Positions 13,308 to 13,460 of a DNA stretch of 64,000 nucleotides are shown here, piece by piece; positions within the stretch are counted from its first letter, which is position 1; every line of letters starts with the position of its first letter. A program made the position numbers and the translations under genes. This stretch comes from Alphaproteobacteria bacterium (GTDB lineage: Bacteria > Pseudomonadota > Alphaproteobacteria > Sphingomonadales > Sphingomonadaceae), in the NCBI GenBank assembly GCA_018823325.1, contig JAHJIJ010000002.1, positions 1-64,000 of the forward strand, read 5' to 3'. A model generated the notes under the pieces. It made no database searches, was not told the origin of the DNA, and saw only the letters and a program-made list of their open reading frames with translations.

Positions 13308-13460
13308 GAGTCGTCACGACTCGCGCGTCAAGAGCAGTAACAGGTTGGAGTCTCTGCCAGAATCAGCCGCACCGATGAGAACGAAACGAGTCCCACACGA
13401 GGGGTGGAGTCTTCCGATTCGGGGAGGACTCAACATGTTGTGGTGTTGCGCTGGAGACTC
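13308..13460. promoter_or_regulatory. Cluster of nine GANTC methylation sites upstream of ccrM
   Basis: GANTC pentamers start at 13308, 13318, 13348, 13360, 13388, 13407, 13416, 13427 and 13456. All lie within 153 bases of the 234-base gap between ccrM and the upstream GDT1 family gene. At about 63% GC roughly half a site would be expected by chance. The sites are not units of an exact repeat. This is the target of the enzyme encoded next door, so the stretch is a candidate methylation-sensitive promoter or leader, possibly bound by GcrA. A CtrA site (TTAA-N7-TTAA) was looked for and not found here. Confidence 0.8.

Follow-up and report, generated by a model that had tools for sequence, protein, structure and literature searches.

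A probable composite control region upstream of ccrM with ordered GANTC sites and a predicted NrdR operator

Described systems and the ccrM locus

In Caulobacter the control region of ccrM contains GANTC sites. To our knowledge, the timing of ccrM outside Caulobacter is largely an open question. In the Sphingomonadales the DivJ-PleC-DivK pathway is degenerate or lost while CckA-ChpT-CtrA is kept (PMC2877005). GcrA is a sigma70 partner which stimulates open complexes at m6A promoters (PMC7403470), and YGAKTCG is its extended motif in Caulobacter (PMC7987155). A synthetic promoter whose two CtrA boxes each contain a GANTC, with a third GANTC between the boxes, was only partly methylated in Caulobacter (PMC5172544). 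NrdR is a repressor of ribonucleotide reductase (RNR) that senses dATP/ATP. It recognises 16-bp boxes in pairs, the two boxes being separated by 14-17 bp or by approximately one turn more (PMC12051234). In Proteobacteria 186 NrdR regulons were reconstructed by Leyn et al. 2016 (PMC5343134), and ccrM is absent from the main text of that paper. No link of NrdR to ccrM control was found in searches of the open-licence PMC library. A control of ccrM by NrdR would be a new combination of known parts.

The window is the whole stretch of DNA which was analysed (64,000 nucleotides). The gene and its control region are as follows.

12137-13276, minus strand: ccrM, GANTC adenine methyltransferase of 379 amino acids with N6_N4_Mtase (PF01555) and RAMA domains
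13277-13510, minus strand: noncoding ccrM control region, bounded by the ccrM ATG and by a GDT1-family gene whose stop is at 13511

The ccrM ATG lies at 13276 on the minus strand. Its product matched NF050803 at 2e-184 and 612 bits, which is below the model cut-off of 830 bits. Two plus strand ORFs in 13277-13510 had no Pfam match at E 0.001. The GDT1-family transporter gene of the window sits between rnhB and ccrM, and a yybP-ykoY manganese riboswitch (RF00080, 58.3 bits) lies ahead of it at 14083-14269. Among the 110 loci described below rnhB was directly upstream of ccrM in at least 40, the number in which rnhB was recognised. In a genome of the same genus (G005:C2:10354-11492) ccrM consisted of two overlapping pieces with one in-frame TGA, which is either a frameshift or an assembly error.

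The Caulobacter ccrM leader, the comparison drawn in the initial annotation, also has GANTC in the control region, but the leader described here has more sites and these are mostly upstream of the predicted promoter. With the NrdR operators of nrdAB, nrdJ and P. aeruginosa topA the ccrM leader shares paired 16-bp palindromes, a 17-bp spacer and the conserved columns, and the spacing of its pair equals that of the nrdA pair of the source genome. It differs from them in its target, a DNA methyltransferase, in inner half-sites with GANTC, and in a pair placed far above the predicted -35. The CcrM/GcrA sigma70 promoters of Alphaproteobacteria likewise have GANTC in the -10/-35 region by TTGAC, and both gcrA and ccrM are present; in contrast, the ccrM leader has two core GANTC plus a distal set, and YGAKTCG is unenriched in relatives. 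As in the synthetic CtrA promoter, described with the MucR- and CtrA-shielded GANTC (PMC5172544), sites lie in and between operator half-sites. Here, unlike there, the arrangement is natural, is at ccrM and involves a predicted nucleotide-sensing regulator, and shielding would hold by analogy.

Number, position and conservation of GANTC sites

The noncoding ccrM leader at 13308-13460 contains nine GANTC sites, and all nine coordinates in the initial annotation were exact when recounted in the sequence. The sites and one adjoining element are as follows.

13308-13312, minus strand: GANTC 1, core promoter, at the predicted -10
13318-13322, minus strand: GANTC 2, core promoter, in the spacer
13348-13352, minus strand: GANTC 3, lineage-specific position with no fixed counterpart in relatives
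13360-13364, minus strand: GANTC 4, lineage-specific position with no fixed counterpart in relatives
13379-13387, minus strand: GTTTCGTTC element from the alignment, adjoining GANTC 5
13388-13392, minus strand: GANTC 5, flanking the proximal NrdR-like box (55 of 110 leaders have a GANTC immediately downstream of the pair)
13407-13411, minus strand: GANTC 6, inner end of the proximal box
13416-13420, minus strand: GANTC 7, between both boxes (central site in 46 of 110)
13427-13431, minus strand: GANTC 8, inner end of the distal box
13456-13460, minus strand: GANTC 9, upstream flank (99 of 110 leaders have a GANTC no more than 35 bp upstream of the pair)

Base composition predicts 0.49 sites per 153 bp, and the approximately eighteen-fold density claimed initially was right. 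GANTC is depleted in the window as a whole, with 99 sites compared to a mean of 293 in shuffles. The genome sample of 864 kb, which is 22% of 3.88 Mb and includes the window, contained 1341 sites (1.55/kb, 33% of the first-order Markov expectation). Nine sites per 153 bp is approximately 39-fold above this density (Poisson P ~4e-12, for a single stretch picked post hoc). The second-densest 153-bp stretch of the sample had four sites, and the ccrM cluster alone exceeded four.

The leaders of 110 loci (L001-L110) were compared, representing 30 of 59 matching genomes (own genome included) and 80 contigs kept of 590. Nearly all were titled Sphingomonadales, and four were titled only Proteobacteria or Alphaproteobacteria. 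They include near-identical strains (e.g. L021-L024), the two collections may overlap, and positions are shifted where a ccrM match started inside the protein. Within 250 bp from the match start (199 bp for L091) every leader had 2 to 11 GANTC and 109 of 110 had at least three. The absence of the cluster from relatives, which the initial annotation had named as speaking against its proposal, was thus not seen, with at least two sites in all 110 loci. The density was 31.6/kb in the leaders compared to 1.36/kb in ccrM and downstream, a 23-fold difference. GANTC was the most enriched of the 16 xyNy'x' pentamers in the 110 leaders, and the next two were enriched 4.3-fold.

An alignment of 40 leaders, read toward ccrM, began with GAGTC, CCACnAgaTaTTGAGTC, approximately 14 bases often with a central GANTC, and GACTCaAtATcTtGtgg. 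In many leaders a GANTC and then TTTCGTTC followed, and after these came approximately 50 variable bases. The last part was CTTGACg-GANTC-N5-GANTC-A, with the start codon approximately 35 bp further. Window sites 13456, 13427, 13416, 13407, 13388, 13318 and 13308 matched aligned places. By sequence comparison the array is ordered rather than randomly packed, since most relatives keep its order and spacing. Seven of the nine sites occupy conserved places in two separate putative elements, and five of those seven are in or around the predicted NrdR operator. The sites at 13348 and 13360 look lineage-specific, those of relatives being scattered in that interval. The initial annotation had proposed feedback of methylation on ccrM, which the conserved and positioned sites fit, but the nine do not form one homogeneous array. 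Its further proposal of graded, dose-like counting does not agree with seven sites split between two separate elements and two that are lineage-specific.

The exact 9-mer GTTTCGTTC was present in 24 of 110 leaders and the looser GANTC-N-TT-NN-GTTC in 48. TTATCCACA/TGTGGATAA, which we take to be the DnaA box, was found in 30 of 110 ccrM leaders (L076, L083, L093, L094, L110 and others). In several Erythrobacter-type relatives it was immediately after the second core GANTC.

The predicted NrdR operator

Two 16-bp palindromes with starts 33 bp apart were found 63-111 bp upstream of the predicted -35.

13395-13410, no strand assigned: predicted NrdR box, proximal (ACACGAGGGGTGGAGT), 5.6 bits, with a weak centre (GG for central AT)
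13428-13443, no strand assigned: distal box of the predicted NrdR pair (ACTCAACATGTTGTGG), 17.0 bits, with a 17-bp spacer and a start-to-start distance of 33 bp

The spacer is 17 bp both at the ccrM leader and at nrdA of the source genome, within the 14-17 bp (approximately three turns) described for NrdR. In the window one GANTC lies at the inner end of each box, one lies between them and others flank them. A box pair of at least 12 bits, an arbitrary threshold, was present in 104 of 110 leaders, and 79 of these 104 pairs were spaced 33. Where rnhB was recognised the boxes were past its stop in 39 of 40 loci. nrdR was present in 11 of 11 genomes examined, own included.

The strongest columns of the ccrM-leader boxes (C-A-AT-T-G) coincide with nrd-box columns, and the outer half-sites (CCACnA... 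/ ...TTGTGG), which lie away from GANTC, are conserved too. Of the 110 leaders, 83 had GANTC in both inner half-sites, at an identical base, and 102 had it in one or both, so that GANTC overlaps the site of the predicted regulator, as in shielded GANTC. The inner half-sites read GAGT where nrd boxes have GTGT. As they sacrifice one NrdR-consensus base, the comparison suggests selection for the methylation site itself. The predicted boxes are at least 63 bp upstream of the predicted -35 and simple steric repression from them is therefore not obvious.

A position weight matrix (PWM) was trained without any ccrM sequence. It combined six nrdA boxes from Sphingobium-like genomes with 26 boxes that precede presumed nrdJ genes of 13 other alphaproteobacteria. 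For nrdJ, inferred by length, 20 stretches upstream of nrd matches were used; 13 of these entered the matrix (pair score of at least 21 of 32) and 7 gave no sufficient pair. The training boxes were the best pair per 1.5-kb stretch above the nrd match, which includes some coding sequence, and were chosen with an assumed NrdR consensus. The class-wide nrd search also gave loci of unusual RNRs (L228-L257), which were left out. Test loci were those members of L031-L110 that spanned 6 kb or more (70 of 80).

The 70 loci have common ancestry and are non-independent. In 67 of them the top-scoring pair spaced 30-33 bp within the ~7-kb locus fell in the 260-bp ccrM leader. Column-permuted matrices gave a mean of 21.9 and a best of 64 in 250 trials, and a mean of 23.6 and a best of 65 in 60 trials. 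A spacing of 32-33 bp gave 67 of 70 with a margin of 14.0 bits. The counts were 61 at 30-31, 58 at 34-36 and 54 at 37-40 bp, and 35-39 of 70 at 20-29 and 41-44 bp, all with margins of at most 6.8 bits. The raised counts at 30-31 and 34-40 bp may come from a lone strong box carrying a pair. Masking of the GANTC bases left 56 of 70 loci (best permuted 49), and the nrdJ-only PWM gave 66 of 70. When the 864-kb sample was scanned with the full PWM, nrdA ranked first (28.5 bits), its boxes having belonged to the training set, and the ccrM leader second (22.6 bits), both spaced 33. The nrdJ-only PWM ranked nrdA first (24.5), an AT-rich stretch at C29:92549 second (22.0) and ccrM third (21.6). Two simpler patterns were set aside. 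Two copies of bare CNANATNTNG at a 33-bp distance, allowing 2 mismatches, made too loose a pattern (4 in the window compared to 0.97 expected). The dyad core TTGAGTC-N8-20-GACTC occurred once in the sampled genome, at ccrM, and its reversed control also occurred once, making it uninformative.

The nrdA gene of the source genome has the pair GCACTATCGATGGTGG / ACGCTATAGATTGTGC, spaced 33. A GANTC (GAATC) beside TTGAC was present in 7 of 9 aligned nrdA upstream regions, the source genome being without it. In Caulobacter nrdA expression drops in a delta-ccrM strain (PMC3973325). RNR and CcrM may run as one module, with methylation coupled to DNA-precursor supply, because nrdA also has an NrdR pair and, in those 7 of 9, GANTC beside TTGAC. 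All 9 aligned nrdA upstream regions had GAAC-N7-GAAC between TTGAC and the start codon, and in the source genome (L166) it was in the last 45 bp before the ATG. We assume this to be the alphaproteobacterial LexA pattern. The GTTTCGTTC element of the ccrM leader (13379-13387) is the reverse complement of GAACGAAAC, which lies within the LexA-like part of the nrdA upstream region in 3 of the 9 genomes aligned, and this likeness could possibly mark a further input common to ccrM and nrdA.

A wider set of 49 leaders comprised L113, which is of the same family, L114-L141 and L142-L161, with 48 leaders from other families. L113-L141 were the 29 best new loci of 117 genomes with a ccrM match, and L142-L161 were 20 of 22 matching genomes from other families of the order. 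Where the rnhB-ccrM gap was delimited, a pair of at least 14 bits was present in 6 of 32 leaders of other families (L118, L122, L128, L130, L137, L140), and in L128 the first box overlaps the rnhB stop. Eight of 16 non-delimited gaps scored at least 14 bits but were read by eye as rnhB codons. In L142-L161, from other families of the order, the candidate NrdR pairs (ACGCAGGATATGGTGT / GCACTAAAGCTTGTGG) were rejected as mostly rnhB coding sequence. As far as sampled, the predicted NrdR arm belongs mainly to the window's family, since only those 6 of 32 delimited gaps carry such a pair. The best candidate outside the family was in L140, where a near-perfect NrdR box ACACAATATCTTGTGT (pair 30.6 bits) lies between rnhB and ccrM and starts 126 bp ahead of the ccrM match.

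Core promoter, competing explanations and a possible switch

The second element of the leader is a predicted core promoter 30-60 bp before the ATG.

13303-13332, minus strand: predicted core promoter, consisting of CTTGACG (13326-13332), GAGTC, N5 and GACTC

A 17-bp spacing places the predicted -10 at CACACC (13303-13308), which is poor and overlaps the last base of the second GANTC. CTTGAC-N2-4-GANTC-N4-6-GANTC occurred once in the sampled genome, at ccrM. Of the 110 leaders, 74 had two GANTC after TTGAC and 98 had one or more; the corresponding counts in the wider set were 29 and 42 of 49. Many wider-set leaders read TTGAC-N-GANTC-N-GACTCAnnAT, in which a CAnnnT-type -10 sits right on the second GANTC. 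As far as sampled, the predicted core promoter is the class-wide part, similar promoters being widespread in Alphaproteobacteria.

The features of a CcrM/GcrA-type promoter, GANTC inside the predicted promoter and gcrA in the genome, were both present, and gcrA was found in 11 of 11 genomes examined. A role of GcrA at the ccrM promoter is plausible because GcrA stimulates m6A promoters and its gene is in all 11 genomes. YGAKTCG fits three of the nine window sites, the two core sites (13308, 13318) and 13416. It was not enriched at the core promoters of relatives (12 of 177 core sites compared to 180 of 837 elsewhere in the loci) and was rejected as the organising rule. The GcrA loading platform suggested in the initial annotation is thus retained for two sites in a promoter predicted to be usable by GcrA, and is weakened by the lack of motif enrichment in relatives.

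These data bear on whether feedback through CcrM and GcrA could account for the whole region, the palindromes being merely flanks which GcrA or CcrM prefers. The predominance of GANTC among the enriched features, the frequency of TTGAC-GANTC-GANTC (74 of 110 and 29 of 49), the presence of gcrA in all 11 genomes examined and the fit of both window core sites to YGAKTCG all agree with this. Such an account is nevertheless unlikely, given the unenriched YGAKTCG at the core sites of relatives, the outer half-sites conserved apart from GANTC and the NrdR signal which persists with GANTC masked (56 of 70).

The pair could also be the operator of another dimeric regulator with an NrdR-like site, in which case the GANTC overlap would give equal methylation sensitivity. 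The assignment to NrdR is a prediction from sequence and the inner half-sites differ from nrd boxes (GAGT compared to GTGT). The matching conserved columns, the 33-bp spacing shared with the source-genome nrdA pair and the best spacing of 32-33 bp make a different regulator improbable. For CtrA, the full site TTAA-N7-TTAA was found in 0 of 110 leaders, and the TTAACC half-site on either strand in 60.

The inverted repeat GAGTC...GACTC might instead fold in the mRNA or terminate an upstream transcript. An RNA element of this kind is very improbable, as the fold of 13277-13470 was no better than shuffles (z -0.72), the leader had no Rfam match at E 1 and the repeat is upstream of the predicted promoter. 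Least credible is the initial suggestion that the cluster, dense as it is in GANTC, soaks up CcrM: titration is implausible with nine of approximately 6000 sites per genome (1.55/kb × 3.88 Mb), with positions fixed relative to other elements, and with ~3,280 CcrM per 4,542 sites in Caulobacter (PMC6538847).

The region probably serves ccrM as a conserved composite control element, with CcrM methylation and predicted NrdR occupancy falling on shared bases. Mutual exclusion between NrdR and CcrM at the operator would be the simplest joint reading. When dNTPs are plentiful, NrdR with dATP/ATP would sit on the predicted pair, lower ccrM and shield the embedded GANTC from CcrM. Replication would drain the dNTP pool, NrdR would leave and CcrM would methylate the operator sites. 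m6A in the inner half-sites would then hinder the return of NrdR until the next fork passage, which would produce hemimethylated DNA to which NrdR could return. The two core-promoter GANTC would set promoter strength through GcrA-sigma70. The least certain steps are the sign of the NrdR effect and whether m6A blocks or helps NrdR binding. NrdR is an activator at P. aeruginosa topA, where it has a single box (PMC4409342), so that its effect at ccrM could be of either sign.

It can be proposed, tentatively, that the window's family has a natural epigenetic switch in which NrdR and CcrM compete for the same bases of the ccrM leader and dNTP use in replication licenses one pulse of methylation per cell cycle. 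If true, the direct input of NrdR would tie the master epigenetic enzyme to the nucleotide pool, and the leader would be a natural example of an operator with built-in methylation sites.
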